DNA of 64,000 bases. Origin: Siphonodentalium dalli. Taxonomy: Eukaryota; Mollusca; Scaphopoda; Gadilida; Siphonodentaliidae. The position numbers were made by a program, and so were the translations under genes. Positions 2,379 through 64,000 of this stretch are shown here, piece by piece (positions within the stretch are counted from its first letter, which is position 1; the number at the start of each line of letters is the position of its first letter). Location of the stretch: NCBI GenBank assembly GCA_032622095.1, contig CP136066.1, positions 53,474,609 to 53,538,608 on the forward strand, read 5' to 3'. The notes beneath the pieces are model-generated. The model was not told the DNA's origin, searched no databases, and was given only the letters and a program-made list of their open reading frames with translations.

Positions 2379-2634
2379 TTTTATTCTTGTTTTCATCTTT
2401 TTCTTTTTCCATTTTCTTTTTCTTGACACCATATCCTTCTGGTTCTTTGACCTTTGTATAGACTCCACCACAGCTGGACTGATGGTCGCCCCACCATGGG
2501 TCTCGTGCAGCTGGAGCCCTGTTCATTGATCTTTTAACGTAGCCGAAGTAAGGGGGACGACTGCGACATGGACCGCTACACCTCCACCAATGTTGCCGAT
2601 AGTTATCAACTTCATCATGGAAGTTATGGTATAT
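2379..2634 (-). CDS. SPRTN: SPRTN exon 5, zinc-binding subdomain
   Basis: 256 bp after acceptor TTACAG, phase 0: IYHNFHDEVDNYRQHWWRC, then SGPCRSRPPYFGYVKR, then WWGDHQSSCGG and VYTKVKEPEGYG, ending in a Lys/Glu-rich tail. Cys187, Cys191 and Cys223 plus nearby His residues match the zinc-binding subdomain that couples the protease to single-stranded DNA. I end it at a donor GTATGT after AATAAAA. Without splicing the frame runs only six more codons to a stop, which would remove the expected C-terminal PIP and UBZ regions. Confidence 0.9.
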
Positions 2635-5600: not shown

Positions 5601-8600
5601 CAATAAACAAAATTGAAACTCCCAACTACACGTTTTACCAGATTTGGCCTCAGGGTCGCACTACAACTTTTAATGTGTCCCAAAAATCCCCCATTTCTAT
5701 AAATAAAACCTCCATGCGCCCATTGAATACCAAGAAACAGTAGCTGAGTATACACCCGGAGGGCGTAATAATACGTATGTACTTTACATTTAGGATTTCA
5801 GAGCATTGATCTAATACCATTGACCTGGATACTCCAGACCAATATTAAGTAACTTACATGTATAGTCATGTAACGTTATCATTATGCATTAATTACCTCA
5901 CATGGTCTGATAATCATGTCCTTTACCTATGTAATTAGTCCATGTGTTGTCATTATCTGTAATAGTTTAACATTATTCAATGTTCATCTGGTTACCATCA
6001 AGCCTGCAAATAGTGGGTCTGTCATTTGCAGAATGAGGTCCCCAGAGGGTGAATTTAGTGATGATCACCAAATTCACCCTCTGGGGACCTCATTCTGCTT
6101 AGGCTTCAACTGCTATGGGAGACCTAGGATCAGATTGAAGTTCTCCAGTTGAAGTTGATGTTCACCCATTGGTCACCTCAATTATGCATTTTATCTTCTG
6201 CAAATTAGGGGATATAGAAACTCAACAGAAGGGGAAAAGTTACTAAAACGATGTTAATTTGAGACTATATATACTTCCCAGAATATGAGGTAGAGCCCGA
6301 AGCCGCCATCGCACGCCGCCGCCAGCCATATTGGCCACAAGCCACAGCCAGCCATATTATCTCTAACGCCAGCCACATCTAAAAAACTCCGCCGCCGGAA
6401 TTGTAAAATGGCTGAGCCGTGTGCGTGGGCTTATATGTCAAGCACAACTGTACTGTGAATCGCAAAGAACTAAACCGCATTGCCTAATATTGGCATACTC
6501 GCATGGACACGGAATGGTTGTTATATTATCAGAACACCGGGCCCCTTAATGTGGAATGGACTATCCCAATGCATGTTTTCATATAACTGAATAGGCGCAT
6601 CCATTCGGTATTGAAAGGGTTAAAATATAAATTGTTTATATCGACAACACCCAGTCTCAGACATCGCTGGCATTTATCAATATATACACATTTATAAGAA
6701 TATATAGAAAATAGTTGGAAATATTATATATCATTAATATCGTGTTCATCATTCAATGATGCATGCATATATCGCAAGATGGGAGTGATGCTAGCAGTCT
6801 GAAGTCGACATAAGTCCCAATGTAACTTATAGCGATTAGATGGGAAACTACATACATGTAGTATATCCATGCCAGTCCTTCGTGAATTTTCGCCATAATG
6901 GAAAAGCCCAACATCAAAAGATTACGTGTGGTCCGGAATTCTACGGGTTCACCACAAACGCTAAAAAAAACGGCGTCTATAACCGGGGATTAGGAACATT
7001 TCGGAAGCGAAAATACGCTGAATGATAACATCTCAGCCGGCTGAGCCGCCATATTTCGTCAGCCACGAACGTCGTGACTGAGCCGGCTTAGCTAGCTAAC
7101 CAGCCACGAATTTCGGTTGAGCCAGCCGTGAACACTATTTGTCGTGGCTTCGGGGTCTAATATGAGGCCTAAGCAGAATGAGGTCCCCAGAATGTAAATA
7201 TGGTGATGCTAGCCCACTGTGCACTAGTGAGCAGGATAGCATCACTTAATTCACCATCTGGGGACCACATTCTAAAAATGACAGACAAACTGTTTGCAGG
7301 CTTGCCCATTTATCAGTTACTGTAAAATGCTTTAATTTGGTTTTGCTATCAATTTTCGTGGTTTAGCTAATTGGGACATTTTCATGGGTTCCTAAATTTG
7401 TGAGTGCTCCACTAATACCAAGACTGTGAAACAGCAGTGCAGTGGGCCCTCAGCAATTGTGCATCCACACTGCAGGCATAATTAATTAACACATGGCATG
7501 GGGGATATTGTTGAAAAGGCTAACAACCGGATTTTATTACATAAGCCAAAATAAGATAGGTGAATGTACTTGTTTATCAAGACAATCAGTGAGGACAGGA
7601 TGTGGCTTAGAATCTAGGTTGGGGAGGGGGTATGTGTGAAATTTCCAACTGCACTCCCTCCCCCTTGAACCAGACCAAAATTAACTCACAGGTTTGCATA
7701 ATTCCATTTCCACCCCAGCAAACACCCCCCTTGGGCTTTGGTTTTTTCGCAACTGGTACATCACATGCCTAGATGGTAGCTAGGTCATTCTCAATTAATC
7801 AGTGATCATTTACCAACAAACCAAAATAACTGTGACATGACATACAACACAGTTATACAGAACTCTGACATACGTCCCATATGTTCCTCTGAGAACAACC
7901 ATGATCAGTACATACTTTATACTAATTAATAATTCTCAGGGTTTTTGACAACTATAAACAAGCCTGAGTTTAGTGTGCCTGTCATTTGCAGAATGAGGTA
8001 CCCAGAGGGTGAATTTAGTGATGCTATCCCACACAGCAGGCTAGCATCACCAAATTCACCATCTTGGGACCTCATTTCGGCATGGCCTCATCTGCTATGG
8101 GAGACATCGGCTCTGATTGAATGGTGAATATTGTGATGCAGTTTGTTCACCCATTAGAATTATGCAATGTGTCATCTGCAAATTTGGAGATATAGAGAAA
8201 ACAACTAAATAAATAAAATAGAATCTATGTGAAGAAGTTTAGAAATTTGATAATAAAGAAACTTTCCTGAGAAGATGGGGCCTAAGCAGAATGAGGTCCT
8301 CAGAGGGTGAATTTAGTTATGCTAGCCCGCTGTGTGGGATAGGGTCACTAAATTCACCCTCTGGGGACCTCATTCTGCAAATGACAGGTACCTTATTCTC
8401 AGGCCTGACAATAAGCATGTTGTTCCATTGATTTGGAATGAGTTTAAATTTAATTAATTCAGATAATTCAGAAAACTTTTCAATGATGTACAAGGTCAGT
8501 AAAGGTGGCTATTATAGATTGAACTTACTCATTTCAAGTCATCCTATAAACAAGCCTTGAAATAGTGTGTCTGTCATTTGCAGAATGAGGTCCCCAGATG

Positions 8601-11600
8601 GTGAATTTAGTGATGATACCCCGCACAGCGGGCTAGCATCACCAAATTCACCCTCTGAGAACCTCATTCTGCTGAGGTGTAAGCAGAATGAGGTCCCCAG
8701 AGGGTGAATTTGGTGATGCTAGCCCGCTATGCGGGGTATCATCACTAAATTCACCCTCTGGGGACCCCATTCTGCAAATGACAGACACACTATTTCAAGG
8801 CTTGCCTATAAACAGTAAAGGGCAAATATTTTGTAAACAGTTGAACGGGCACGTGTGGAGACTACAGGTGAGTTTGTTTTGAGAGGAATTTTGTTATTAT
8901 CCCTTTCATGACGGAAGCAGCACTGGTGCAGTGTTAAAGATCCTTATATATGCGAGTCTCCCATAGGGAGCCTCGCATATATTAGAGAATGCACTGGCAT
9001 ACAAGGTAAAGGTAAATATTGTTATGCCAATGCATTCTCTTATATTAGTGCCTGTCTTTTCATTAAGGAGATTCATGCCCTATAACTCACCGATATATTA
9101 ATGCCTGTCTTTTCATTAAGGAGATTCATGCCCTATAACTCACCGATATATTAATGCCTGTCTTTTCGTTAAGGAGATTCATCCCCTATAACTCACCGAT
9201 ATATTAGTGCCTGTCTTTTCATTAAGGAGATTCATGCCCTATAACTCACCGATATATTAATGCCTGTCTTTTCATTAAGGAGATTCATGCCCTATAGCTC
9301 ACCAATATATTAATGCCTGTCTTTTCATTAAGGAGATTCATGCCCTATAACTCACCGATATATTAGTGCCTGTCTTTTCATTAAGGAGATTCATGCCCTA
9401 TAACTCACCTTTATATTAGTGCCTGTCTTTTCGTTGAGGCAATTCATGCCCTATAACTCACCTTTATATTAATGCCTGTCTTTTCATTAAGGAGATTCAT
9501 GCCCTATAACTCACCTTTATATTAGTGCCTGTCTTTTCGTTGAGGCAATTCATGCCCTATAACTCACCGATATATTAATGCCTGTCTTTTTATTAAGGAG
9601 ATTCATGCCCTATAGCTCACCAATATATTAATGCCTGTCTTTTCATTAAGGAGATTCATGCCCTATAACTCACCGATATATTAATGCCTGTCTTTTCGTT
9701 AAGGAGATTCATGCCCTATAACTCACCGATATATTAATGCCTGTCTTTTCGTTGAGGCAATTCATGCCCTATAACTCACCGATATATTAATGCCTGTCTT
9801 TTCATTAAGGAGATTCATGCCCTATAGCTCACCAATATATTAATGCCTGTCTTTTCATTAAGGAGATTCATGCCCTATAACTCACCGATATATTAATGCC
9901 TGTCTTTTCGTTAAGGAGATTCATGCCCTATAACTCACCGATATATTAATGCCTGTCTTTTCATTAAGGAGATTCATGCCCTATAACTCACCGATATATT
10001 AGTGCCTGTCTTTTCATTAAGGAGATTCATGCCCTATAACTCACCGATATATTAATGCCTGTCTTTTCGTTGAGGTGATTCATGCCCTATAACTCACCAA
10101 TATATTAGTGCCTGTCTTTTCATTAAGGAGATTCATGCCCTATAACTCACCTTTATATTAGTGCCTGTCTTTTCGTTGAGGCAATTCATGCCCTATAACT
10201 CACCTTTATATTAATGCCTGTCTTTTCATTAAGGAGATTCATGCCCTATAACTCACCTTTATATTAGTGCCTGTCTTTTCGTTGAGGCAATTCATGCCCT
10301 ATAACTCACCGATATATTAATGCCTGTCTTTTCATTAAGGAGATTCATGCCCTATAGCTCACCAATATATTAATGCCTGTCTTTTCATTAAGGAGATTCA
10401 TGCCCTATAACTCACCGATATATTAATGCCTGTCTTTTCATTAAGGAGATTCATGCCCTATAACTCACCTTTATATTAGTGCCTGTCTTTTCGTTGAGGC
10501 AATTCATGCCCTATAACTCACCTTTATATTAATGCCTGTCTTTTCATTAAGGAGATTCATGCCCTATAACTCACCTTTATATTAGTGCCTGTCTTTTCGT
10601 TGAGGCAATTCATGCCCTATAACTCACCGATATATTAATGCCTGTCTTTTCATTAAGGAGATTCATGCCCTATAGCTCACCAATATATTAATGCCTGTCT
10701 TTTCATTAAGGAGATTCATGCCCTATAACTCACCGATATATTAGTGCCTGTCTTTTCATTAAGGAGATTCATGCCCTATAACTCACCGATATATTAATGC
10801 CTGTCTTTTCGTTGAGGCAATTCATGCCCTATAACTCACCGATATATTAATGCCTGTCTTTTCATTAAGGAGATTCATGCCCTATAGCTCACCAATATAT
10901 TAATGCCTGTCTTTTCATTAAGGAGATTCATGCCCTATAACTCACCGATATATTAATGCCTGTCTTTTCGTTAAGGAGATTCATGCCCTATAACTCACCG
11001 ATAAATTAATGCCTGTCTTTTCATTAACCCTTTGAACCCTGGCGCCCCACAGTGATCGACACCCTGACCCGGGGCCCCCAGTGGTATGTCCGCTTAAATT
11101 AGACAGTGTCTAGTAGCATGGTGTTGATTATGTTCAAATTGCGACACCGGTCTGAAACTTTACAGGTTTGTCCCCCATGGATCAGCGATCATTATAAGAT
11201 GGCGAGACTTTGCCTCGCGGCAACTCCTTGGTAACGGTTGCTAGGCAACTACCCGGAATTGACTGGAAAATGTAAATATAGCTTATAGCGTCGTAATTCA
11301 ACCTCAGTGATTGCGTTTTTTGATGCAGGTACTACCCTAGCGTGAAATTTGAGATATACCCGACCAGAATAGTGAACCAAATATCCCATTTAAGGGTAGC
11401 AACGGTTGCTAAGCAAATACCACAACTGATCGAATGACATAATTGCACTAACCATTCAGTGGTATGTTTTGCCTTAATTTAGACAGTGTCGAGTCGCATG
11501 GTGTTGGTTATGTTGAAAGGGGACACCTACCTGAAACTGTGCAGGCATGATATATGCATGCACGGACCATTGATCATTGTAAGATCGGGAGACTTTGCCA

Positions 11601-14600
11601 CCCGATCTTGCCTTAGAAACGGTTACTAGGCAACTACCCGAAATTTGCAGGATAAACGAATTCTAGCTTATAACGTTGTAATTATACATCAGCGAATTGC
11701 GTTTCGATGCAACCAATATCCTAATGTGAAATTTAGATATACCTGACCATGCGCGAGTAAGTCAACTTTATTACAGAGACCAGAAACAACGTAATTTCCC
11801 GTAACATATCATGGCCCCATTGTTCAAGTAAGCTGTCTAGATCGTGTCTACTGTACTAACATGTGAAACATGCAACAAAATGTCATATATAGCGCCACAT
11901 TTCACTTAAACGCATTTTTTAAAATGAATTATAGCCTGCGCCCATGCGCATATTTTCCTAGCCATTTCTAGCGGGCAACCAATCCATATAGACACCTTTG
12001 CCAGCGCTGACTTCAATAGGCCAATTTAAATATATATATTAGTGGGTATGTCGTGTATAAGTACGTTATAAACCATTTATTTGTCATTGCGCTAGTCTGC
12101 GCATGCGCGAATAAATCAACTTCATATGCGATAGACCCTTCCCCATATGTAGCAGAACACTGGTTAGTATACGCGAGGGTAATTTAAACTGAAATTGTGG
12201 GTCTAAATTATGTCTGTTCTGTACACACACGGGGAACACGAAATTATATGCCGTAAATATAGCGGCACAGTTCGCTTAAAATATCGTATGTTTTTGTAGA
12301 TTATATGCTATGCGCATGCGCATATATTTCTACCCGATACTAGCGGTCAACCATTCCATACGCACCATGGGCGCCGCTGACATATGTGGGGGCAATTTAA
12401 ATATAAATCAGTGGGTCTGACACTCGTTATACTATATATAAATTTGCTACCGAATCATGTCGTCGCTGCACCGAAATATCGGTGTTACAGGATATAGTCA
12501 CGGTTCGTTTGCACCTAAATATCGGTGTTACGGGTTCAAAGGGTTAAGGAGATTCATGCCCTATAACTCACCGATATATTAGTGCCTGTCTTTTCATTAA
12601 GGAGATTCATGCCCTATAACTCACCGATATATTAATGCCTGTCTTTTCGTTGAGGTGATTCATGCCCTATAACTCACCAATATATTAGTGCCTGTCTTTT
12701 CATTAAGGAGATTCATGCCCTATAACTCACCGATATATTAATGCCTGTCTTTTCGTTGAGGCAATTCATGCCCTATAACTCACCGATATATTAATGCCTG
12801 TCTTTTCGTTGAGGTGATTCACGCCCTATAACTCACCGATATATTAATGCCTGTCTTTTCATTAAGGAGATTCATGCCCTATAACTCACCTTTATATTAG
12901 TGCCTGTCTTTTCATTAAGGAGATTCATGCCCTATAACTCACCGATATATTAATGCCTGTCTTTTCGTTGAGGTGATTCATGCCCTATAACTCACCGATA
13001 TATTAGTGCCTGTCTTTTCATTGAGGTGATTCATGCCCTATAACTCACCGATATATTAATGCCTGTCTTTTCGTTGAGGTGATTCACGCCCTATAACTCA
13101 CCAATATATTAATGCCTGTCTTTTCATTAAGGAGATTCATGCCCTATAACTCACCGATATATTAATGCCTGTCTTTTCATTAAGGAGATTCATGCCCTAT
13201 AACTCACCTTTATATTAGTGCCTGTCTTTTCGTTGAGGTGATTCATGCCCTATAACTCACCGATATATTAATGCCTGTCTTTTCATTAAGGAGATTCATG
13301 CCCTATAACTCACCTTTATATTAATGCCTGTCTTTTCATTAAGGAGATTCATGCCCTATAACTCACCTTTATATTAATGCCTGTCTTTTCGTTGAGGTGA
13401 TTCATGCCCTATAACTCACCGACATATTAATGCCTGTCTTTTCATTAAGGAGATTCATGCCCTATAACTCACCTTTATATTAGTGCCTGTCTTTTCATTA
13501 AGGAGATTCATGCCCTATAACTCACCGATATATTAATGCCTGTCTTTTCGTTGAGGTGATTCATGCCCTATAACTCACCGATATATTAATGCCTGTCTTT
13601 TCATTGAGGTGATTCATGCCCTATAACTCAGCGATATATTAATGCCTGTCTTTTCGTTGAGGTGATTCATACCCTATAACTCACCGATATATTAATGCCT
13701 GTCTTTTCATTAAGGTGATTCATGCCCTATAACTCACCGATATATTAATGCCTGTCTTTTCATTAAGGAGATTCATGCCCTATAACTCACCGATATATTA
13801 ATGCCTGTCTTTTCGTTGAGGTGATTCATGCCCTATAACTCACCGATATATTAGTGCCTGTCTTTTCATTCAGACGATTCATGCCCTATAACTCACCTTT
13901 ATATTAATGCCTGTCTTTTCATTAAGGAGATTCATGCCCTATAACTCACCGATATATTAATGCCTGTCTTTTCATTAAGGTGATTCATGCCCTATAACTC
14001 ACCAATATATTAATGCCTGTCTTTTCATTAAGGAGATTCATGCCCTATAACTCACCGATATATTAATGCCTGTCTTTTCATTGAGGAGATTCATGCCCTA
14101 TAACTCACCTTTATATTAGTGCCTGTCTTTTCATTAAGGTGATTCATGCCCTATAACTCACCGATATATTAGTGCCAGTCTTTTCATTAAGGAGATTCAT
14201 GCCCTATAACTCACCGATATATTAATGCCTGTCTTTTCATTAAGGAGATTCATGCCCTATAACTCACCTTTATATTAGTGCCTGTCTTTTCATTAAGGAG
14301 ATTCATGCCCTATAACTCACCTTTATATTAATGCCTGTCTTTTCATTGAGGAGATTCATGCCCTATAACTCACCTTTATATTAATGCCTGTCTTTTCATT
14401 AAGGAGATTCATGCCCTATAACTCACCTTTATATTAGTGCCTGTCTTTTCATTAAGGAGATTCATCCCCTATAACTCACCTTTATATTAATGCCTGTCTT
14501 TTCATTGAGGAGATTCATGCCCTATAACTCACCAATATATTAATGCCTGTCTTTTCATTAAGGAGATTCATGCCCTATAACTCACCGATATATTAATGCC

Positions 14601-17600
14601 TGTCTTTTCATTAAGGAGATTCATGCCCTATAACTCACCTTTATATTAGTGCCTGTCTTTTCGTTGAGGTGATTCATGCCCTATAACTCACCGATATATT
14701 AATGCCTGTCTTTTCATTAAGGAGATTCATGCCCTATAACTCACCTTTATATTAATGCCTGTCTTTTCATTAAGGAGATTCATGCCCTATAACTCACCTT
14801 TATATTAATGCCTGTCTTTTCGTTGAGGTGATTCATGCCCTATAACTCACCGACATATTAATGCCTGTCTTTTCATTAAGGAGATTCATGCCCTATAATT
14901 CACCTTTATATTAGTGCCTGTCTTTTCATTAAGGAGATTCATGCCCTATAACTCACCGATATATTAATGCCTGTCTTTTCGTTGAGGTGATTCATGCCCT
15001 ATAACTCACCGATATATTAGTGCCTGTCTTTTCATTGAGGTGATTCATGCCCTATAACTCACTGATATATTAATGCCTGTCTTTTCGTTGAGGTGATTCA
15101 CGCCCTATAACTCACCTTTATATTAGTGCCTGTCTTTTCGTTGAGGCAATTCATGCCCTATAACTCACCTTTATATTAATGCCTGTCTTTTCATTAAGGA
15201 GATTCATGCCCTATAACTCACCTTTATATTAGTGCCTGTCTTTTCGTTGAGGCAATTCATGCCCTATAACTCACCGATATATTAATGCCTGTCTTTTCAT
15301 TAAGGAGATTCATGCCCTATAACTCACCAATATATTAATGCCTGTCTTTTCATTAAGGAGATTCATGCCCTATAACTCACCTTTATATTAGTGCCTGTCT
15401 TTTCGTTGAGGTGATTCATGCCCTATAACTCACCGATATATTAATGCCTGTCTTTTCATTAAGGAGATTCATGCACTATAACTCACCTTTATATTAATGC
15501 CTGTCTTTTCATTAAGGAGATTCATGCCCTATAACTCACCTTTATATTAGTGCCTGTCTTTTCGTTGAGGCAATTCATGCCCTATAACTCACAGATATAT
15601 TAATGCCTGTCTTTTCATTAAGGAGATTCATGCCCTATAGCTCACCAATATATTAATGCCTGTCTTTTCATTAAGGAGATTCATGCCCTATAACTCACCG
15701 ATATATTAATGCCTGTCTTTTCGTTAAGGAGATTCATGCCCTATAACTCACCGATATATTAATGCCTGTCTTTTCATTGAGGCAATTCATGCCCTATAAC
15801 TCACCGATATATTAATGCCTGTCTTTTCATTAAGGAGATTCATACCCTATAGCTCACCAATATATTAATGCCTGTCTTTTCATTAAGGAGATTCATGCCC
15901 TATAACTCACCGATATATTAATGCCTGTCATTTCATTAAGGAGATTCATGCCCTATAACTCACCGATATATTAGTGCCTGTCTTTTCATTAAGGAGATTC
16001 ATGCCCTATAACTCACCGATATATTAATGCCTGTCTTTTCGTTGAGGTGATTCATGCCCTATAACTCACCAATATATTAATGCCTGTCTTTTCATTAAGG
16101 AGATTCATGCCCTATAACTCACCGATATATTAGTGCCTGTCTTTTCATTAAGGAGATTCATGCCCTATAAATCACCTTTATATTAGTGCCTGTCTTTTCA
16201 TTAAGGAGATTCATGCCCTATAACTCACCGATATATTAATGCCTGTCTTTTCGTTGAGGTGATTCATGCCCTATAACTCACCGATATATTAATGCCTGTC
16301 TTTTCATTAAGGAGATTCATGCCCTATAGCTCACCGATATATTAGTGCCTGTCTTTTCATTAAGGAGATTCATGCCCTATAACTCACCTTTATATTAGTG
16401 CCTGTCTTTTCGTTGAGGCAATTCATGCCCTATAACTCACCTTTATATTAATGCCTGTCTTTTCATTAAGGAGATTCATGCCCTATAACTCACCGATATA
16501 TTAGTGCCTGTCTTTTCATTAAGGAGATTCATGCCCTATAACTCACCTTTATATTAGTGCCTGTCTTTTCGTTGAGGCAATTCATGCCCTATAACTCACC
16601 TTTATATTAATGCCTGTCTTTTCATTAAGGAGATTCATGCCTATAACTCACCTTTATATTAGTGCCTGTCTTTTCATTAAGGAGATTCATGCCCTATAAC
16701 TCACCGATATATTAATGCCTGTCTTTTCGTTGAGGCAATTCATGCCCTATAACTCACCGATATATTAATGCCTGTCTTTTCATTAAGGAGATTCATGCCC
16801 TATAGCTCACCAATATATTAATGCCTGTCTTTTCATTAAGGAGATTCATGCCCTATAACTCACCGATATATTAATGCCTGTCTTTTCGTTAAGGAGATTC
16901 ATGCCCTATAACTCACCGATATATTAATGCCTGTCTTTTCATTAAGGTGATTCATGCCCTATAACTCACCGATATATTAGTGCCTGTCTTTTCATTAAGG
17001 AGATTCATGCCCTATAACTCACCTTTATATTAGTGCCTGTCTTTTCGTTGAGGCAATTCATGCCCTATAACTCACCGATATATTAATGCCTGTCTTTTCA
17101 TTAAGGTGATTCATGCCCTATAACTCACCGATATATTAATGCCTGTCTTTTCATTAAGGAGATTCATGACCTATAACTCACCTTTATATTAGTGCCTGTC
17201 TTTTCGTTGAGGAGATTCATGCCCTATAACTCACCTTTATATTAGTGCCTGTCTTTTCATTAAGGAGATTCATGCCCTATAGCTCACCGATATATTAATG
17301 CCTGTCTTTTCATTAAGGAGATTCATGCCCTATAACTCACCTTTATATTAGTGCCTGTCTTTTCGTTGAGGCAATTCATGCCCTATAACTCACCGATATA
17401 TTAATGCCTGTCTTTTCGTTGAGGTGATTCATGCCCTATAACTCACCTTTGTATTAGTGCCTGTCTTTTCATTAAGGAGATTCATGCCCTATAACTCACC
17501 GATATATTAATGCCTGTCTTTTCATTAAGGTGATTCATGCCCTATAACTCACCGATATATTAGTGCCTGTCTTTTCATTAAGGAGATTCATGCCCTATAA

Positions 17601-20600
17601 CTCACCTTTATATTAGTGCCTGTCTTTTCGTTGAGGCAATTCATGCCCTATAACTCACCGATATATTAATGCCTGTCTTTTCATTAAGGTGATTCATGCC
17701 CTATAACTCACCGATATATTAATGCCTGTCTTTTCATTAAGGAGATTCATGCCCTATAACTCACCTTTATATTAGTGCCTGTCTTTTCGTTGAGGAGATT
17801 CATGCCCTATAACTCACCGATATATTAATGCCTGTCTTTTCATTGAGGTGATTCATGCCCTATAACTCACCTTTATATTAGTGCCTGTCTTTTCATTAAG
17901 GAGATTCATGCCCTATAACTCACCGATATATTAATGCCTGTCTTTTCATTAAGGTGATTCATGCCCTATAACTCACCGATATATTAATGCCTGTCTTTTC
18001 ATTAAGGAGATTCATGCCCTATAACTAACCTTTATATTAGTGCCTGTCTTTTCGTTGAGGCAATTCATGCCCTATAACTCACCGATATATTAATGCCTGT
18101 CTTTTCATTAAGGAGATTCATGCCCTATAGCTCACCAATATATTAATGCCTGTCTTTTCGTTGAGGCAATTCATGCCCTATAACTCACCGATATATTAAT
18201 GCCTGTCTTTTCATTAAGGAGATTCATGCCCTATAACTCACCGATATATTAGTGCCTGTCTTTTCATTAAGGAGATTCATGCCCTATAACTCACCTTTAT
18301 ATTAATGCCTGTCTTTTCATTAAGGAGATTCATGCCCTATAACTCACCTTTATATTAGTGCCTGTCTTTTCATTAAGGAGATTCATGCCCTATAACTCAC
18401 TGATATATTAATGCCTGTCTATTCGTTGAGGTGATTCATGCCCTATAACTCACCGATATATTAATGCCTGTCTTTTCATTAAGGAGATTCATGCCCTATA
18501 GCTCACCGATATATTAATGCCTGTCTTTTCATTAAGGAGATTCATGCCCTATAACTCACCGATATATTAATGCCTGTCTTTTCGTTAAGGAGATTCATGC
18601 CCTATAACTCACCGATATATTAATGCCTGTCTTTTCGTTAAGGAGATTCATGCCCTATAACTCACCGATATATTAATGCCTGTCTTTTCATTAAGGAGAT
18701 TCATGCCCTATAGCTCACCGATATATTAATGCCTGTCTTTTCATTAAGGAGATTCATGCCCTATAGCTCACCGATATATTAATGCCTGTCTTTTCATTAA
18801 GGAGATTCATGCCCTATAACTCACCGATATATTAATGCCTGTCTTTTCATTAAGGTGATTCATGCCCTATAACTCACCGATATATTAATGCCTGTCTTTT
18901 CATTAAGGAGATTCATGCCCTATAGCTCACCGATATATTAATGCCTGTCTTTTCATTAAGGAGATTCATGCCCTGTAACTCACCGATATATTAATGCCTG
19001 TCTTTTCGTTGAGGCAATTCATGCCCTATAACTCACCGATATATTAATGCCTGTCTTTTCATTAAGGTGATTCATGCCCTATAACTCACCGATATATTAA
19101 TGCCTGTCTTTTCATTAAGGAGATTCATGCCCTATAACTCACCGATATATTAATGCCTGTCTTTTCATTAAGGAGATTCATGCCCTATAACTCACCGATA
19201 TATTAATGCCTGTCTTTTCGTTGAGGCAATTCATGCCCTATAACTCACCTTTATATTAATGCCTGTCTTTTCATTAAGGAGATTCATGCCCTATAACTCA
19301 CCTTTATATTAGTGCCTGTCTTTTCATTAAGGAGATTCATGCCCTACAACTCACCTTTATATTAGTGCCTGTCTTTTCGTTGAGGCAATTCATGCCCTAT
19401 AACTCACCTTTATATTAATGCCTGTCTTTTCATTAAGGAGATTCATGCCCTATAACTCACTGATATATTAGTGCCTGTCTTTTCATTAAGGAGATTCATG
19501 CCCTATAACTCACCTTTATATTAGTGCCTGTCTTTTCGTTGAGGCAATTCATGCCCTATAACTCACCAATATATTAGTGCCTGTCTTTTCATTAAGGTGA
19601 TTCATGCCCTATAACTCACCGATATATTAATGCCTGTCTTTTCATTAAGGAGATTCATGCCCTATAACTCACCTTTATATTAGTGCCTGTCTTTTCGTTG
19701 AGGATATTCATGCCCTATAACTCACCGATATATTAATGCCTGTCTTTTCATTGAGGTGATTCATGCCCTATAACTCACCTTTATATTAGTGCCTGTCTTT
19801 TCATTAAGGAGATTCATGCCCTATAACTCACCGATATATTAATGCCTGTCTTTTCATTAAGGTGATTCATGCCCTATAACTCACCGATATATTAATGCCT
19901 GTCTTTTCATTAAGGAGATTCATGCCCTATAACTAACCTTTATATTAGTGCCTGTCTTTTCGTTGAGGCAATTCATGCCCTGTAACTCACTGATATATTA
20001 ATGCCTGTCTATTCGTTGAGGTGATTCATGCCCTATAACTCACCGATATATTAATGCCTGTCTTTTCATTAAGGAGATTCATGCCCTATAGCTCACCAAT
20101 ATATTAATGCCTGTCTTTTCGTTGAGGCAATTCATGCCCTATAACTCACTGATATATTAATGCCTGTCTATTCGTTGAGGTGATTCATGCCCTATAACTC
20201 ACCGATATATTAATGCCTGTCTTTTCATTAAGGTGATTCATGCCCTATAACTCACCGATATATTAATGCCTGTCTTTTCATTAAGGAGATTCATGCCCTA
20301 TAACTAACCTTTATATTAGTGCCTGTCTTTTCGTTGAGGCAATTCATGCCCTGTAACTCACTGATATATTAATGCCTGTCTATTCGTTGAGGTGATTCAT
20401 GCCCTATAACTCACCGATATATTAATGCCTGTCTTTTCATTAAGGAGATTCATGCCCTATAGCTCACCAATATATTAATGCCTGTCTTTTCGTTGAGGCA
20501 ATTCATGCCCTATAACTCACCGATATATTAATGCCTGTCTTTTCATTAAGGAGATTCATGCCCTATAACTCACCGATATATTAGTGCCTGTCTTTTCATT

Positions 20601-23600
20601 AAGGAGATTCATGCCCTATAACTCACCTTTATATTAATGCCTGTCTTTTCATTAAGGAGATTCATGCCCTATAACTCACCTTTATATTAGTGCCTGTCTT
20701 TTCATTAAGGAGATTCATGCCCTATAACTCACCGATATATTAGTGCCTGTCTTTTCATTAAGGAGATTCATGCCCTATAACTCACCTTTATATTAGTGCC
20801 TGTCTTTTCGTTGAGGCAATTCATGCCCTATAACTCACCTTTATATTAATGCCTGTCTTTTCATTAAGGAGATTCATGCCTATAACTCACCTTTATATTA
20901 GTGCCTGTCTTTTCATTAAGGAGATTCATGCCCTATAACTCACCGATATATTAATGCCTGTCTTTTCGTTGAGGCAATTCATGCCCTATAACTCACCGAT
21001 ATATTAATGCCTGTCTTTTCATTAAGGAGATTCATGCCCTATAGCTCACCAATATATTAATGCCTGTCTTTTCATTAAGGAGATTCATGCCCTATAACTC
21101 ACCGATATATTAATGCCTGTCTTTTCGTTAAGGAGATTCATGCCCTATAACTCACCGATATATTAATGCCTGTCTTTTCATTAAGGTGATTCATGCCCTA
21201 TAACTCACCGATATATTAGTGCCTGTCTTTTCATTAAGGAGATTCATGCCCTATAACTCACCTTTATATTAGTGCCTGTCTTTTCGTTGAGGCAATTCAT
21301 GCCCTATAACTCACCGATATATTAATGCCTGTCTTTTCATTAAGGTGATTCATGCCCTATAACTCACCGATATATTAATGCCTGTCTTTTCATTAAGGAG
21401 ATTCATGACCTATAACTCACCTTTATATTAGTGCCTGTCTTTTCGTTGAGGAGATTCATGCCCTATAACTCACCTTTATATTAGTGCCTGTCTTTTCATT
21501 AAGGAGATTCATGCCCTATAGCTCACCGATATATTAATGCCTGTCTTTTCATTAAGGAGATTCATGCCCTATAACTCACCTTTATATTAGTGCCTGTCTT
21601 TTCGTTGAGGCAATTCATGCCCTATAACTCACCGATATATTAATGCCTGTCTTTTCGTTGAGGTGATTCATGCCCTATAACTCACCTTTATATTAGTGCC
21701 TGTCTTTTCATTAAGGAGATTCATGCCCTATAGCTCACCGATATATTAATGCCTGTCTTTTCATTAAGGAGATTCATGCCCTATAACTCACCTTTATATT
21801 AGTGCCTGTCTTTTCGTTGAGGCAATTCATGCCCTATAACTCACCGATATATTAATGCCTGTCTTTTCATTAAGGAGATTCATGCCCTATAGCTCACCAA
21901 TATATTAATGCCTGTCTTTTCGTTGAGGCAATTCATGCCCTATAACTCACCGATATATTAATGCCTGTCTTTTCATTAAGGAGATTCATGCCCTATAACT
22001 CACCGATATATTAGTGCCTGTCTTTTCATTAAGGAGATTCATGCCCTATAACTCACCTTTATATTAATGCCTGTCTTTTCATTAAGGAGATTCATGCCCT
22101 ATAACTCACCTTTATATTAGTGCCTGTCTTTTCATTAAGGAGATTCATGCCCTATAACTCACTGATATATTAATGCCTGTCTATTCGTTGAGGTGATTCA
22201 TGCCCTATAACTCACCGATATATTAATGCCTGTCTTTTCATTAAGGAGATTCATGCCCTATAGCTCACCGATATATTAATGCCTGTCTTTTCATTAAGGA
22301 GATTCATGCCCTATAACTCACCGATATATTAATGCCTGTCTTTTCGTTAAGGAGATTCATGCCCTATAACTCACCGATATATTAATGCCTGTCTTTTCGT
22401 TAAGGAGATTCATGCCCTATAACTCACCGATATATTAATGCCTGTCTTTTCATTAAGGAGATTCATGCCCTATAGCTCACCGATATATTAATGCCTGTCT
22501 TTTCATTAAGGAGATTCATGCCCTATAGCTCACCGATATATTAATGCCTGTCTTTTCATTAAGGAGATTCATGCCCTATAACTCACCGATATATTAATGC
22601 CTGTCTTTTCATTAAGGTGATTCATGCCCTATAACTCACCGATATATTAATGCCTGTCTTTTCATTAAGGAGATTCATGCCCTATAGCTCACCGATATAT
22701 TAATGCCTGTCTTTTCATTAAGGAGATTCATGCCCTGTAACTCACCGATATATTAATGCCTGTCTTTTCGTTGAGGCAATTCATGCCCTATAACTCACCG
22801 ATATATTAATGCCTGTCTTTTCATTAAGGTGATTCATGCCCTATAACTCACCGATATATTAATGCCTGTCTTTTCATTAAGGAGATTCATGCCCTATAAC
22901 TCACCGATATATTAATGCCTGTCTTTTCATTAAGGAGATTCATGCCCTATAACTCACCGATATATTAATGCCTGTCTTTTCGTTGAGGCAATTCATGCCC
23001 TATAACTCACCTTTATATTAATGCCTGTCTTTTCATTAAGGAGATTCATGCCCTATAACTCACCTTTATATTAGTGCCTGTCTTTTCATTAAGGAGATTC
23101 ATGCCCTACAACTCACCTTTATATTAGTGCCTGTCTTTTCGTTGAGGCAATTCATGCCCTATAACTCACCTTTATATTAATGCCTGTCTTTTCATTAAGG
23201 AGATTCATGCCCTATAACTCACTGATATATTAGTGCCTGTCTTTTCATTAAGGAGATTCATGCCCTATAACTCACCTTTATATTAGTGCCTGTCTTTTCG
23301 TTGAGGCAATTCATGCCCTATAACTCACCAATATATTAGTGCCTGTCTTTTCATTAAGGTGATTCATGCCCTATAACTCACCGATATATTAATGCCTGTC
23401 TTTTCATTAAGGAGATTCATGCCCTATAACTCACCTTTATATTAGTGCCTGTCTTTTCGTTGAGGATATTCATGCCCTATAACTCACCGATATATTAATG
23501 CCTGTCTTTTCATTGAGGTGATTCATGCCCTATAACTCACCTTTATATTAGTGCCTGTCTTTTCATTAAGGAGATTCATGCCCTATAACTCACCGATATA

Positions 23601-26600
23601 TTAATGCCTGTCTTTTCATTAAGGTGATTCATGCCCTATAACTCACCGATATATTAATGCCTGTCTTTTCATTAAGGAGATTCATGCCCTATAACTAACC
23701 TTTATATTAGTGCCTGTCTTTTCGTTGAGGCAATTCATGCCCTGTAACTCACTGATATATTAATGCCTGTCTATTCGTTGAGGTGATTCATGCCCTATAA
23801 CTCACCGATATATTAATGCCTGTCTTTTCATTAAGGAGATTCATGCCCTATAGCTCACCAATATATTAATGCCTGTCTTTTCGTTGAGGCAATTCATGCC
23901 CTATAACTCACTGATATATTAATGCCTGTCTATTCGTTGAGGTGATTCATGCCCTATAACTCACCGATATATTAATGCCTGTCTTTTCATTAAGGTGATT
24001 CATGCCCTATAACTCACCGATATATTAATGCCTGTCTTTTCATTAAGGAGATTCATGCCCTATAACTAACCTTTATATTAGTGCCTGTCTTTTCGTTGAG
24101 GCAATTCATGCCCTGTAACTCACTGATATATTAATGCCTGTCTATTCGTTGAGGTGATTCATGCCCTATAACTCACCGATATATTAATGCCTGTCTTTTC
24201 ATTAAGGAGATTCATGCCCTATAGCTCACCAATATATTAATGCCTGTCTTTTCGTTGAGGCAATTCATGCCCTATAACTCACCGATATATTAATGCCTGT
24301 CTTTTCATTAAGGAGATTCATGCCCTATAACTCACCGATATATTAGTGCCTGTCTTTTCATTAAGGAGATTCATGCCCTATAACTCACCTTTATATTAAT
24401 GCCTGTCTTTTCATTAAGGAGATTCATGCCCTATAACTCACCTTTATATTAGTGCCTGTCTTTTCATTAAGGAGATTCATGCCCTATAACTCACCGATAT
24501 ATTAGTGCCTGTCTTTTCATTAAGGAGATTCATGCCCTATAACTCACCTTTATATTAGTGCCTGTCTTTTCGTTGAGGCAATTCATGCCCTATAACTCAC
24601 CTTTATATTAATGCCTGTCTTTTCATTAAGGAGATTCATGCCTATAACTCACCTTTATATTAGTGCCTGTCTTTTCATTAAGGAGATTCATGCCCTATAA
24701 CTCACCGATATATTAATGCCTGTCTTTTCGTTGAGGCAATTCATGCCCTATAACTCACCGATATATTAATGCCTGTCTTTTCATTAAGGAGATTCATGCC
24801 CTATAGCTCACCAATATATTAATGCCTGTCTTTTCATTAAGGAGATTCATGCCCTATAACTCACCGATATATTAATGCCTGTCTTTTCGTTAAGGAGATT
24901 CATGCCCTATAACTCACCGATATATTAATGCCTGTCTTTTCATTAAGGTGATTCATGCCCTATAACTCACCGATATATTAGTGCCTGTCTTTTCATTAAG
25001 GAGATTCATGCCCTATAACTCACCTTTATATTAGTGCCTGTCTTTTCGTTGAGGCAATTCATGCCCTATAACTCACCGATATATTAATGCCTGTCTTTTC
25101 ATTAAGGTGATTCATGCCCTATAACTCACCGATATATTAATGCCTGTCTTTTCATTAAGGAGATTCATGACCTATAACTCACCTTTATATTAGTGCCTGT
25201 CTTTTCGTTGAGGAGATTCATGCCCTATAACTCACCTTTATATTAGTGCCTGTCTTTTCATTAAGGAGATTCATGCCCTATAGCTCACCGATATATTAAT
25301 GCCTGTCTTTTCATTAAGGAGATTCATGCCCTATAACTCACCTTTATATTAGTGCCTGTCTTTTCGTTGAGGCAATTCATGCCCTATAACTCACCGATAT
25401 ATTAATGCCTGTCTTTTCGTTGAGGTGATTCATGCCCTATAACTCACCTTTGTATTAGTGCCTGTCTTTTCATTAAGGAGATTCATGCCCTATAACTCAC
25501 CGATATATTAATGCCTGTCTTTTCATTAAGGTGATTCATGCCCTATAACTCACCGATATATTAGTGCCTGTCTTTTCATTAAGGAGATTCATGCCCTATA
25601 ACTCACCTTTATATTAGTGCCTGTCTTTTCGTTGAGGCAATTCATGCCCTATAACTCACCGATATATTAATGCCTGTCTTTTCATTAAGGTGATTCATGC
25701 CCTATAACTCACCGATATATTAATGCCTGTCTTTTCATTAAGGAGATTCATGCCCTATAACTCACCTTTATATTAGTGCCTGTCTTTTCGTTGAGGAGAT
25801 TCATGCCCTATAACTCACCGATATATTAATGCCTGTCTTTTCATTGAGGTGATTCATGCCCTATAACTCACCTTTATATTAGTGCCTGTCTTTTCATTAA
25901 GGAGATTCATGCCCTATAACTCACCGATATATTAATGCCTGTCTTTTCATTAAGGTGATTCATGCCCTATAACTCACCGATATATTAATGCCTGTCTTTT
26001 CATTAAGGAGATTCATGCCCTATAACTAACCTTTATATTAGTGCCTGTCTTTTCGTTGAGGCAATTCATGCCCTATAACTCACCGATATATTAATGCCTG
26101 TCTTTTCATTAAGGAGATTCATGCCCTATAGCTCACCAATATATTAATGCCTGTCTTTTCGTTGAGGCAATTCATGCCCTATAACTCACCGATATATTAA
26201 TGCCTGTCTTTTCATTAAGGAGATTCATGCCCTATAACTCACCGATATATTAGTGCCTGTCTTTTCATTAAGGAGATTCATGCCCTATAACTCACCTTTA
26301 TATTAATGCCTGTCTTTTCATTAAGGAGATTCATGCCCTATAACTCACCTTTATATTAGTGCCTGTCTTTTCATTAAGGAGATTCATGCCCTATAACTCA
26401 CTGATATATTAATGCCTGTCTATTCGTTGAGGTGATTCATGCCCTATAACTCACCGATATATTAATGCCTGTCTTTTCATTAAGGAGATTCATGCCCTAT
26501 AGCTCACCGATATATTAATGCCTGTCTTTTCATTAAGGAGATTCATGCCCTATAACTCACCGATATATTAATGCCTGTCTTTTCGTTAAGGAGATTCATG

Positions 26601-29600
26601 CCCTATAACTCACCGATATATTAATGTCTGTCTTTTCGTTAAGGAGATTCATGCCCTATAACTCACCGATATATTAATGCCTGTCTTTTCATTAAGGAGA
26701 TTCATGCCCTATAGCTCACCGATATATTAATGCCTGTCTTTTCATTAAGGAGATTCATGCCCTATAGCTCACCGATATATTAATGCCTGTCTTTTCATTA
26801 AGGAGATTCATGCCCTATAACTCACCGATATATTAATGCCTGTCTTTTCATTAAGGTGATTCATGCCCTATAACTCACCGATATATTAATGCCTGTCTTT
26901 TCATTAAGGAGATTCATGCCCTATAGCTCACCGATATATTAATGCCTGTCTTTTCATTAAGGAGATTCATGCCCTGTAACTCACCGATATATTAATGCCT
27001 GTCTTTTCGTTGAGGCAATTCATGCCCTATAACTCACCGATATATTAATGCCTGTCTTTTCATTAAGGTGATTCATGCCCTATAACTCACCGATATATTA
27101 ATGCCTGTCTTTTCATTAAGGAGATTCATGCCCTATAACTCACCGATATATTAATGCCTGTCTTTTCATTAAGGAGATTCATGCCCTATAACTCACCGAT
27201 ATATTAATGCCTGTCTTTTCGTTGAGGCAATTCATGCCCTATAACTCACCTTTATATTAATGCCTGTCTTTTCATTAAGGAGATTCATGCCCTATAACTC
27301 ACCTTTATATTAGTGCCTGTCTTTTCATTAAGGAGATTCATGCCCTACAACTCACCTTTATATTAGTGCCTGTCTTTTCGTTGAGGCAATTCATGCCCTA
27401 TAACTCACCTTTATATTAATGCCTGTCTTTTCATTAAGGAGATTCATGCCCTATAACTCACTGATATATTAGTGCCTGTCTTTTCATTAAGGAGATTCAT
27501 GCCCTATAACTCACCTTTATATTAGTGCCTGTCTTTTCGTTGAGGCAATTCATGCCCTATAACTCACCAATATATAAGTGCCTGTCTTTTCATTAAGGTG
27601 ATTCATGCCCTATAACTCACCGATATATTAATGCCTGTCTTTTCATTAAGGAGATTCATGCCCTATAACTCACCTTTATATTAGTGCCTGTCTTTTCGTT
27701 GAGGAGATTCATGCCCTATAACTCACCGATATATTAATGCCTGTCTTTTCATTGAGGTGATTCATGCCCTATAACTCACCTTTATATTAGTGCCTGTCTT
27801 TTCATTAAGGAGATTCATGCCCTATAACTCACCGATATATTAATGCCTGTCTTTTCATTAAGGTGATTCATGCCCTATAACTCACCGATATATTAATGCC
27901 TGTCTTTTCATTAAGGAGATTCATGCCCTATAACTAACCTTTATATTAGTGCCTGTCTTTTCGTTGAGGCAATTCATGCCCTATAACTCACCGATATATT
28001 AATGCCTGTCTTTTCATTAAGGAGATTCATGCCCTATAGCTCACCAATATATTAATGCCTGTCTTTTCGTTGAGGCAATTCATGCCCTATAACTCACCGA
28101 TATATTAATGCCTGTCTTTTCATTAAGGAGATTCATGCCCTATAACTCACCGATATATTAGTGCCTGTCTTTTCATTAAGGAGATTCATGCCCTATAACT
28201 CACCTTTATATTAATGCCTGTCTTTTCATTAAGGAGATTCGTGCCCTATAACTCACCTTTATATTAGTGCCTGTCTTTTCATTAAGGAGATTCATGCCCT
28301 ATAACTCACTGATATATTAATGCCTGTCTATTCGTTGAGGTGATTCATGCCCTATAACTCACCGATATATTAATGCCTGTCTTTTCATTAAGGAGATTCA
28401 TGCCCTATAGCTCACCGATATATTAATGCCTGTCTTTTCATTAAGGAGATTCATGCCCTATAACTCACCGATATATTAATGCCTGTCTTTTCGTTAAGGA
28501 GATTCATGCCCTATAACTCACCGATATATTAATGCCTGTCTTTTCGTTAAGGAGATTCATGCCCTATAACTCACCGATATATTAATGCCTGTCTTTTCAT
28601 TAAGGAGATTCATGCCCTATAGCTCACCGATATATTAATGCCTGTCTTTTCATTAAGGAGATTCATGCCCTATAGCTCACCGATATATTAATGCCTGTCT
28701 TTTCATTAAGGAGATTCATGCCCTATAACTCACCGATATATTAATGCCTGTCTTTTCATTAAGGTGATTCATGCCCTATAACTCACCGATATATTAATGC
28801 CTGTCTTTTCATTAAGGAGATTCATGCCCTATAGCTCACCGATATATTAATGCCTGTCTTTTCATTAAGGAGATTCATGCCCTGTAACTCACCGATATAT
28901 TAATGCCTGTCTTTTCGTTGAGGCAATTCATGCCCTATAACTCACCGATATATTAATGCCTGTCTTTTCATTAAGGTGATTCATGCCCTATAACTCACCG
29001 ATATATTAATGCCTGTCTTTTCATTAAGGAGATTCATGCCCTATAACTCACCGATATATTAATGCCTGTCTTTTCATTAAGGAGATTCATGCCCTATAAC
29101 TCACCGATATATTAATGCCTGTCTTTTCGTTGAGGCAATTCATGCCCTATAACTCACCTTTATATTAATGCCTGTCTTTTCATTAAGGAGATTCATGCCC
29201 TATAACTCACCTTTATATTAGTGCCTGTCTTTTCATTAAGGAGATTCATGCCCTACAACTCACCTTTATATTAGTGCCTGTCTTTTCGTTGAGGCAATTC
29301 ATGCCCTATAACTCACCTTTATATTAATGCCTGTCTTTTCATTAAGGAGATTCATGCCCTATAACTCACTGATATATTAGTGCCTGTCTTTTCATTAAGG
29401 AGATTCATGCCCTATAACTCACCTTTATATTAGTGCCTGTCTTTTCGTTGAGGCAATTCATGCCCTATAACTCACCGATATATTAATGCCTGTCTTTTCA
29501 TTAAGGAGATTCATGCCCTATAACTCACCAATATATTAGTGCCTGTCTTTTCATTAAGGAGATTCATGCCCTATAACTCACCGATATATTAATGCCTGTC

Positions 29601-32600
29601 TTTTCGTTGAGGTGATTCATGCCCTATAACTCACCAATATATTAGTGCCTGTCTTTTCATTAAGGAGATTCATGCCCTATAACTCACCGATATATTAATG
29701 CCTGTCTTTTCGTTGAGGTGATTCATGCCCTATAACTCACCGATATATTAATGCCTGTCTTTTCGTTGAGGTGATTCACGCCCTATAACTCACCGATATA
29801 TTAATGCCTGTCTTTTCATTAAGGAGATTCATGCCCTATAACTCACCGATATATTAGTGCCTGTCTTTTCGTTGAGGTGATTCATGCCCTATAACTCACC
29901 GATATATTAATGCCTGTCTTTTCGTTGAGGTGATTCACGCCCTATAACTCACCAATATATTAATGCCTGTCTTTTCATTAAGGAGATTCATGCCCTATAA
30001 CTCACCGATATATTAATGCCTGTCTTTTCATTAAGGAGATTCATGCCCTATAACTCACAGATATATTAGTGCCTGTCTTTTCGTTGAGGTGATTCATGCC
30101 CTATAACTCACCGATATATTAATGCCTGTCTTTTCATTAAGGAGATTCATGCCCTATAGCTCACCAATATATTAATGCCTGTCTTTTCATTAAGGAGATT
30201 CATGCCCTATAACTCACCTTTATATTAATGCCTGTCTTTTCATTAAGGAGATTCATGCCCTATAACTCACCTTTATATTAGTGCCTGTCTTTTCGTTGAG
30301 GTGATTCATGCCCTATAACTCACCGATATATTAATGCCTGTCTTTTCATTAAGGAGATTCATGCCCTATAACTCACCTTTATATTAGTGCCTGTCTTTTC
30401 ATTAAGGAGATTCATGCCCTATAACTCACTGATATATTAATGCCTGTCTATTCGTTGAGGTGATTCATGCCCTATAACTCACCGATATATTAATGCCTGT
30501 CTTTTCGTTGAGGTGATTCATGCCCTATAACTCACCGATATATTAATGCCTGTCTTTTCGTTGAGGTGATTCATGCCCTATAACTCACCGATATATTAAT
30601 GCCTGTCTTTTCGTTGAGGTGATTCATGCCCTATAACTCACCGATATATTAATGCCTGTCTTTTCGTTGAGGTGATTCATGCCCTATAGCTCACCAATAT
30701 ATTAATGCCTGTCTTTTCATTAAGGTGATTCATGCCCTATAACTCACCGATATATTAATGCCTGTCTTTTCATTAAGGAGATTCATGCCCTATAACTCAC
30801 CGATATATTAATGCCTGTCTTTTCATTAAGGAGATTCATGCCCTATAACTCACCTTTATATTAGTGCCTGTCTTTTCATTAAGGAGATTCATGCCCTATA
30901 ACTCACCGATATATTAATGCCTGTCTTTTCATTCAGACGATTCATGCCCTATAACTCACCTTTATATTAGTGCCTGTCTTTTCATTAAGGAGATTCATGC
31001 CCTATAACTCACCGATATATTAATGCCTGTCTTTTCATTAAGGAGATTCATGCCCTATAACTCACCGATATATTAATGCCTGTCTTTTCGTTGAGGTGAT
31101 TCATGCCCTATAACTCACCGATATATTAGTGCCTGTCTTTTCGTTGAGGTGATTCATGCCCTATAACTCACCGATATATTAATGCCTGTCTTTTCGTTGA
31201 GGTGATTCATGCCCTATAACTCACCAATATATTAGTGCCTGTCTTTTCATTGAGACGATTCATGTGTTTCTGAAATTCAGGTCCATGTCCATCATGATCC
31301 TACAAGAAATCAGTCGAAAAAATGTAACAATAATAATATTTTTATGTAAATTACAATTGTTTAAAGGCACGGATGGCCTTGGTTGTAATTTAGAAACAAA
31401 TGTTACCAAATTATGAATTCCTCAAGAAGACACTAATAGTATAGTATAATGACAATATGAATGTGATATTACCCACAAAGGCACACTATGTGAACCGAGC
31501 ATTTGTTTATATACATCACATAAAGAGTGTGCTACAAGCAAAACACTCAAAACTGTGGCGATTATTTTGGGAGCGTGATTCACGGTGATCAATTAAACCC
31601 TGAAATCTGGAATGTCAAGGATTAGCGAGCGCTAAATCGACATGTTGTAAACAATATGGTGTCAATTTTAACCAAAGTTCACTTATAGTGGGGAGTTAAG
31701 TGTTTTTCCATATTGCACACTCTTTACGAACTGTACTGTATCATAATATTGCTTTTGTTTACTAACAAGGCATATGATCTTGACAATAACGTGCTATTTA
31801 TGAGATATTTATGATTGGTATAAAATCAAAATCTCTTTATAATTTAATAATCTTTCTGTTTATGGCGGTTTTAACAGATGTGACTTTTAAACAGCAATAC
31901 CGATTGCGAAGGCCATCCGTATCTTTAACCATTTCAATACTAAATGGATTCTCCCATTCAGTTATAAAAGTATACGTTGGAACTGTCTATTATTCATTTC
32001 GAAGGGTGTTCAGGTAACAAAAGCAGACGACAGACAGAAAAACTGATAGTACAAGAGCAGAATGATTCATATTCATTTGTGGGAAATGGTCGTTTGTTGA
32101 ACTTAATATCTGAACATTTCCTAAGGGAACTGCTCTTTAATGAGTATTTACTATAGAAAGGATTAACCCTACTATGACTGGAGCTTCCTGAAATTCTGCG
32201 AAAACCCTGTGCCAATGCATTCTCTTATATATGCGAGTCTCCCATATAAGAGAATACATTGGTCTAACAATATTTACCTTGACCTTGCAAGCCAGTGCAT
32301 TCTCTTCTATATGCTAGGCTCCCTATGGGAAACTAGCATATATAAGAGAATGCACTGGGACAGGGTCTTTAATGCTGGAACAGCGCAACTCCCATCATAA
32401 CCCCCATTATGAAAGGGTTAATTGGCATTTGTGTTGATCAACAGTTATATTGACTGACATATCTTTAAAAAGAAAAAGACGAATATACAGTAATGCCCTA
32501 AAAATCAACCCTTAACCACAGCAGAATTATGGGTAACTTTTCAGGATTTAGTCGGAAATATGGCTTGTTGCCATTCATTGGAAAGCTCTCACTGAGAGCA

Positions 32601-63117: not shown

Positions 63118-64000
63118 TTGTCCCCCGACGTTTCCGTCGGAGGACTATAGAAATGACCCTCGTCCGTCCGTCCGTGCGTCCGTGCGTCCGTCCGTCCGTG
63201 CGTCCGTGCGTCCGAGATTGGGTACCTTCATGGTGTAATCAACTCCTCCTACAGTTTTAAACGTAGAGATTTGAAACTCTGGGATATTGTTACTAACATG
63301 TTGGTGATTTGCAACATCTATATAGCTAATCAAAAATATCATTTTTTCCATATTTTTGGGGGGGTTTTCGACTTAGAAAATTTGGAACATTTTTGCCTTT
63401 TGGATGAGATTGGGTACCTTCATGGTGTAATCAACTCCTCCTACAGTTTTAAATGTAGAGATTTGAAACTCTGGGATATTGTTCCTAACATGTTGGTGAT
63501 TTGCAACATCTATATAGCTAATCAAAAATATCATTTTTTCCATATTTTTGGGGGGGTTTTCGACTTAGAAAATTTGGAACATTTTTGCCTTTTGGATGAG
63601 ATTGGGTACCTTCATGGTGTAATCAACTCCTCCTACAGTTTTAAATGTAGAGATTTGAAACTCTGGGATATTGTTCCTAACATGTTGGTGATTTGCAACA
63701 TCTATATAGCTAATCAAAAATATCATTTTTTCCATATTTTTGGGGGGGTTTTCGACTTAGAAAATTTGGAACATTTTTGCCTTTTGGATGAGATTGGGTA
63801 CCTTCATGGTGTAATCAACTCCTCCTACAGTTTTAAATGTAGAGATTTGAAACTCTGGGATATTGTTCCTAACATGTTGGTGATTTGCAACATCTATATA
63901 GCTAATAAAAAATATTATATTTTCCATATTTTTGGGGGGTTTTCGACTTAGAAAATTTGGAACATTTTTGCCTTTTGGATGAGATTGGGTACCTTCATGG
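63118..64000 (+). repeat. GTCC microsatellite leading into a 192-bp minisatellite
   Basis: CCCCCGACGTTTCCGTCGG and GGACTATAGAAATGACCCTC, then (GTCC/GTGC)n at 63162-63212, then 192-bp units from 63217. The units start at 63217, 63409, 63601, 63793 and 63984, nearly identical, running off the right edge. Since 192 is 64 x 3, one frame stays open for 226 codons; the final unit has one G fewer and closes it. Confidence 0.92.

Follow-up and report, generated by a model that had tools for sequence, protein, structure and literature searches.

SPRTN gene and the array in intron 4

How the edge of a coding exon and its 5' splice site can come to be repeated hundreds of times behind the authentic exon border, in a gene that still reads through its conserved domains, and what such an array means for the splicing of that gene, is the question raised by one locus of the scaphopod Siphonodentalium dalli. 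The locus lies in a stretch of 64,000 nucleotides (hereafter the window; contig CP136066.1, positions 53,474,609 to 53,538,608 of the forward strand, assembly GCA_032622095.1) within a 2.2-Gb assembly of 9 contigs, and the gene in question is SPRTN, which is carried on the minus strand of the window. The array proper occupies 31263..9041 on the minus strand and, followed in a unit-by-unit walk, consists of 391 head-to-tail units in the assembly. It is very probably an exon-border minisatellite, of the type termed a mirage, that grew in place in a gene where the first donor is mostly used, the array itself being without function. The gene and the array comprise the following features, in window coordinates.

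48058..48332, minus strand: SPRTN coding exon 1, from the ATG as read in this analysis; donor GTAAGT
34209..34317, minus strand: SPRTN exon 2; acceptor TTTCAG, donor GTGAGA
32727..32771, minus strand: SPRTN exon 3, containing HEMIH, which we take to be the zinc-protease motif
31225..31299, minus strand: SPRTN exon 4, phase 0; unit 1 takes its exonic part from the final 39 nt (31263..31225)
31211..31224, minus strand: authentic 5' splice site, the initial 14 nt of intron 4 (GTGAGTTATAGGGC), which are the intronic part of unit 1
2635..31224, minus strand: SPRTN intron 4, 28,590 bp, with an array of 20,668 bp
12544..31263, minus strand: exon-proximal part of the array, from the Tandem Repeats Finder (TRF) and the unit walk; holds large internal block duplications
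9041..11027, minus strand: distal part of the array, its final unit cut at ...AATATA
2379..2634, minus strand: SPRTN exon 5, zinc-binding domain; acceptor TTACAG, donor GTATGT

Exons 1-5, when joined, are without a stop, with frame and splice sites intact, and match the SprT-like domain PF10263 (2.5e-32) and the SPRTN zinc-binding domain PF22934 (2.2e-25), the junction of exon 4 to exon 5 being translated as ...GHGPEFQKHMNRLNEKTGTNIL followed directly by IYHNFHDEV. A 403-residue open stretch ending in CxxC...HxxxC, on the same strand, at most 10 kb downstream of these exons and just beyond the window, probably encodes the C-terminal part of SPRTN.

Unit 1 (31263..31211) is composed of the last 39 nt of exon 4 and the first 14 nt of intron 4, which is exactly the make-up that the first-pass annotation of this DNA had given for the repeated unit. 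All 391 units are read on the minus strand, in the orientation of the exon unit, and the array adjoins the authentic exon 4 border in frame with the exon. The estimate of about 390 copies in one orientation with a single transposon break agrees with the 391 units (20,668 bp) and the one TTAA-flanked insert observed here, and the array itself also stands as described, except that its extent of 9044-31299 is corrected to 31263..9041, with a MITE-like (miniature inverted-repeat transposable element) sequence beginning below about 9041. Exactly 53 bp are found in 387 of the units and 52 bp in three, the final one being incomplete; the unit that is split by the insert, of 1516 bp, was counted once, as unit 354, and its first bases are insert sequence. 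TRF likewise reports a 53-bp period at 9041-11027 (37.5 copies) and at 12544-31264 (353.3 copies), with 92% matches and 0% indels. A 36-mer of the exon tail, searched with up to 3 mismatches, gave 130 matches, all on the minus strand, as compared with a mean of 0.00 and a maximum of 0 in 100 shuffles, and a chance origin is thereby excluded. In the flanks of the array (9.0 kb and 32.7 kb) no ungapped alignment with the exon unit matches more than 28 of 53 positions.

Intronless paralogue of SPRTN

The description of SPRTN as single-copy does not hold in this genome, where an intact intronless paralogue of 437 amino acids, with both domains present, was found at contig C3:82252913-82254223. The alignment of the paralogue with exons 1-5 of the window gene covers 233 residues, 162 of them identical, and the differences fall as 60, 47 and 126 on the first, second and third codon positions, these counts being used in place of the synonymous divergence (dS), which was not computable. 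As the differences are concentrated by codon position, constraint since the split of the two SPRTN genes is suggested. The 400 bases downstream of the paralogue contain no conspicuous poly-A run, and a literature search for SPRTN retrogenes found none; our guess is that it is an old retrogene. With regard to the age of intron 4, all that can be read from the paralogue is the joined coding sequence.

Donor sites and their splicing consequences

The sequence GTGAG is present at the expected place in 380 of the 391 units. From the first of these donors exon 4 joins exon 5 in frame, and each of the 379 others leads to a premature stop, at one and the same codon, after ...NIL-VSYRA. As everything behind the first donor is intron, a full-length protein requires that the spliceosome pick the foremost among about 380 near-identical donors. 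Donor strength was expressed as the simple duplex energy with the 5' end of U1, which is a crude score. The authentic donor scores -9.2 kcal/mol, which is not unusual given that the donors of SPRTN exons 2 and 3 score -8.1 and -9.6. Lower energies were obtained for 306 of the 391 units (106 at -10.7 and 200 at -9.4), equal ones for 14 including the authentic site, and the remaining 71 are weaker or, for the incomplete last unit, unscored. If normal splicing is kept, position rather than strength would have to decide, and we infer that the authentic first donor is still in use.

These same observations could also be read as regulation. The array, with the same origin, would then control SPRTN through about 380 decoy donors that compete for U1 and divert some of the transcripts, to an extent set by array length, into an unproductive early-stop product, the paralogue covering the loss; we regard this as unlikely. 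The uniform stop behind each of the 379 non-first GTGAG donors would suit it, as would the 106 units that pair better with U1 by 1.5 kcal/mol and the 200 that do so by just 0.2, the existence of an intact paralogue, and the human CBS gene, for which it is reported that more repeats of a 31-bp variable number tandem repeat (VNTR) at the exon 13/intron 13 boundary go with lower CBS activity (PMC5188458). Moreover, RNA of five units folds less stably than all 200 shuffles, from which open donors might be expected; on the other hand, the repeat lacks self-complementarity, and weaker folding than in shuffled sequence is to be expected of such a repeat. The donor bases are no more constrained than the remainder of the unit, and recent copying explains their likeness. 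The duplex energies, too, are only a crude measure. A more elaborate form, to which we give the same low credence, is a length-tunable donor array in which about 380 competing donors would determine how much productive SPRTN mRNA is made, or would serve as a local sink for U1, with the paralogue relaxing the demand on the gene.

Unit variation and growth of the array

The units of the array represent 61 types, 28 of which were seen once, and long series of types recur in the same order. A block of 68 consecutive units (3603 bp) is repeated at a shift of 71 units, the two copies being identical to the end of their match; a shorter block of 40 units (2119 bp) is repeated, likewise without difference, at a shift of 151 units. 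The 387 full-length units, 20,511 bases in all, carry only 16 private substitutions, five of which are insert bases of unit 354, while 12 variants are each common to at least 10 units. As private substitutions are few and shared variants many, the copies would have spread by block-wise unequal exchange or block duplication and not aged independently.

Perfect internal repetition on this scale also bears on whether a shorter, real exon-border repeat was inflated to 391 copies by the assembly, a partial artefact that is compatible with growth in place and that we consider very improbable. The identical blocks of 3603 and 2119 bp, above all the 68-unit block that shows no difference up to the end of its run, could come from such an error. 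However, other matching blocks hold isolated single-base differences (unit 58 against units 94, 174 and 245; unit 88 against units 52, 168 and 239), and the distal part of the array has unit types of its own and a private insert.

Five of the 53 positions of the exon unit, all of them exonic, deviate from the array consensus, and its differences from the other full-length units number 2 to 11 (mean 5.2 of 53). The third codon of the unit reads L in 240, H in 85, C in 60, R in 4 and I in 2 of the 391 units. Arginine is found in units 1, 7, 329 and 354, and since the codon of unit 354 is made of insert bases, only two true others share it with the exon unit; the same arginine is also present in the intronless paralogue. 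The array has not overwritten the exon copy, which is what selection on that copy would lead one to expect.

Distribution of the unit and neighbouring repeats

Throughout the 2.2-Gb assembly a 17-mer of the unit gave 297 exact forward matches and 0 reverse matches, 296 of which are within the window, the only one outside being isolated on contig C4 in unrelated surroundings. A search of the assembly with a 100-bp query led only to the SPRTN locus (one of two candidates scored), and the assembly yielded no second array of the unit, although one might lie hidden in gap stretches. What is present is a one-locus giant minisatellite and not a dispersed or heterochromatic family, as the term satellite in the first-pass annotation would suggest; a better match to some dispersed satellite elsewhere, which that annotation named as a refutation of its reading, was sought in the assembly and none was found. 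Its notion of amplification in place is borne out by an array continuous with the authentic exon and found at the SPRTN locus only. That a dispersed or transposon-borne satellite captured the exon edge and was then inserted at SPRTN is the least credible origin and hardly deserves weight. Many other tandem repeats and MITE-like elements are indeed present in the window, and one of the latter borders the array at its distal end; yet the assembly holds no other array of the unit (gap stretches aside), and the array passes without interruption, and in frame, into the authentic exon.

Two further features mark the break and the far edge of the array.

11028..12543, minus strand: 1516-bp insert inside one array unit, ending in 12-bp terminal inverted repeats (CCCTTTGAACCC) and flanked on either side by TTAA
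9025..9045, plus strand: distal junction, TGCCAATGCATTCTCTTATAT of the MITE-like repeat, with TATAT (9041-9045) common to the array and the repeat

The insert is the sole break in the array and is presumably a piggyBac-like non-autonomous element, the family being judged from the TTAA and the ends. The arm sequence of the distal MITE-like repeat recurs at 4016/4074 and 32216/32354. The far end of the array joins the interior of this repeat, and its original far boundary is accordingly lost.

Other repeats were also observed in the window. The MITE-like family near 4016-4074, 9025-9045 and 32216-32354 exhibits palindromic parts with TGCATTCTCTTATAT arms, and one of its copies forms the far edge of the array. 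A 164-bp satellite with higher-order periods of 319 and 483 bp is located at 1-1159, behind SPRTN exon 5, and in parts of 36281-45357, within intron 1; a 192-bp repeat at 63214-64000 (4.1 copies, 98% matches) extends past the end of the window and has one frame open (a 264-codon stretch); and 16/32-bp repeats (CTTCGGAG and its complement) lie at 51310-51546 and 52631-52886 in opposite orientations, about 1.1 kb apart.

Origin of the array

The locus can be accounted for in a few steps. A 53-bp segment across the SPRTN exon 4/intron 4 border would once have been duplicated in tandem, and unequal exchange or replication-based block duplication would have expanded it to about 391 units, while selection would have kept the exon-attached unit coding-competent. 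Most transcripts would use the first donor, with the array having no function of its own, and it may be tolerated because the authentic donor is still used.

Several points weigh against this account of growth in place with the first donor still in use. The decoys are no weak competitors, 106 of them clearly exceeding the authentic donor in predicted pairing and 200 more doing so by a narrow difference, so that strength alone could not secure a preference for the first donor. The perfect internal blocks could leave room for assembly error. Furthermore, in none of 30 RRM loci of the assembly did a self-match overlap the domain-coding stretch, although four of them (L021, L024, L025 and L040) have a self-match at most 160 bp from the centre. 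By comparison, in the positive control, a stretch around SPRTN exon 4, 29 of the 30 self-matches obtained covered the exon tail. The RRM loci are 30 of 97 matches, and with three that are one place and two near-identical pairs they amount to about 26 distinct stretches; true exon borders were not known to the test, and a repeat stopping short of the domain is missed by it. The RRM loci thus give no hint that exon-edge repeats arise frequently in this genome, but with so small a sample and so blunt a test they may nevertheless do so.

A second set of 30 loci, with kinase domains, was left out of the count because all 30 came from one gene cluster. That cluster, at contig C2:149.83-150.60 Mb, contains dozens of near-identical Ser/Thr kinase open reading frames of about 281 amino acids, in tandem and mostly 2-3 kb apart, and most of the 135 listed Pkinase matches fall in it; the kinase presumably resembles a testis-specific serine kinase.

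The locus represents a natural test of donor choice, with one exon followed by about 380 near-identical serial donors of which only the first reads into exon 5. How splicing holds to that donor, if it does so, bears on exon definition and on first-come recognition, and the locus shows how far an exon-border minisatellite can grow in a gene still open through its conserved domains.

Comparison with known exon-border repeats

The first-pass annotation regarded such an array as not a described class, a view that cannot be kept given the amphioxus mirages (PMC3087553, PMC3902484) and the human CBS VNTR (PMC5188458), both already published. As described in their source, mirages are tandem repeats spanning exon-intron borders in Adh3 and in the globins BflGb6 and BflGb9, affecting both 5' and 3' borders and carrying splice signals, with length variation and somatic instability reported (PMC3087553). 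The authors read their reverse transcription PCR and Adh3 data as regular splicing undisturbed (PMC3087553; likewise PMC3902484), and troponin C was later added to the mirages, with which imperfect splice-site repeats in PGBD5 were compared (PMC3902484). The mirage unit spans the border, adjoins the authentic border in the same orientation and has copies that carry splice signals, and all three properties are found in the SPRTN array; BflGb9, in which the 3' boundary of exon 2 is duplicated, shares its geometry (PMC3087553). For a further mirage property, concerted evolution inside the array with the edge left out, block duplication is plain in SPRTN and the exon unit departs from the other copies by a mean of 5.2 of 53 positions, in the one haplotype analysed. 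On the other hand, the BflGb6 mirage consists, according to haplotype, of 6 or 3 units of 150-160 bp, compared with 391 of 53 bp in SPRTN, which total 20.7 kb and include blocks of dozens of units, and splicing and length variation were studied in amphioxus, whereas the SPRTN array is known from sequence alone (PMC3087553).

Judged by the three shared sequence-level features, the SPRTN array is a very large mirage, far above the 6 and 3 units of BflGb6. The human CBS VNTR, with a copy number of 16-21, is also far below it. That VNTR resembles the SPRTN array in being a minisatellite that straddles an exon-intron border in a conserved gene, and differs in that its sequence is called non-coding by the source (PMC5188458). 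In paralogues of human segmental duplications, variable internal tandem repeats, some of them at exon-intron boundaries, are reported to alter gene structure; the likeness is in minisatellite expansion, sometimes at such boundaries, and the difference is in their units, on average 30 bp repeated four times, and in their tie to novel introns (PMC2812944). In cases such as potato RdRp, which belong to intron gain (the AGGT model), extra splice signals likewise arise from a segment duplicated in tandem over an intron-exon border or close to it, whereas in SPRTN no new intron position is evident and the copies are inside an existing intron (PMC4974935). A further candidate parallel (PMC6823432) was dropped, as its passages deal with mitochondrial group II introns. 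As far as these sources go, the published parallels so far are smaller repeats of like kind from amphioxus and human genes. We know of no larger exon-border repeat in print, a weak statement that extends to the open-licence literature. The SPRTN array stands out by its size and not by its kind.

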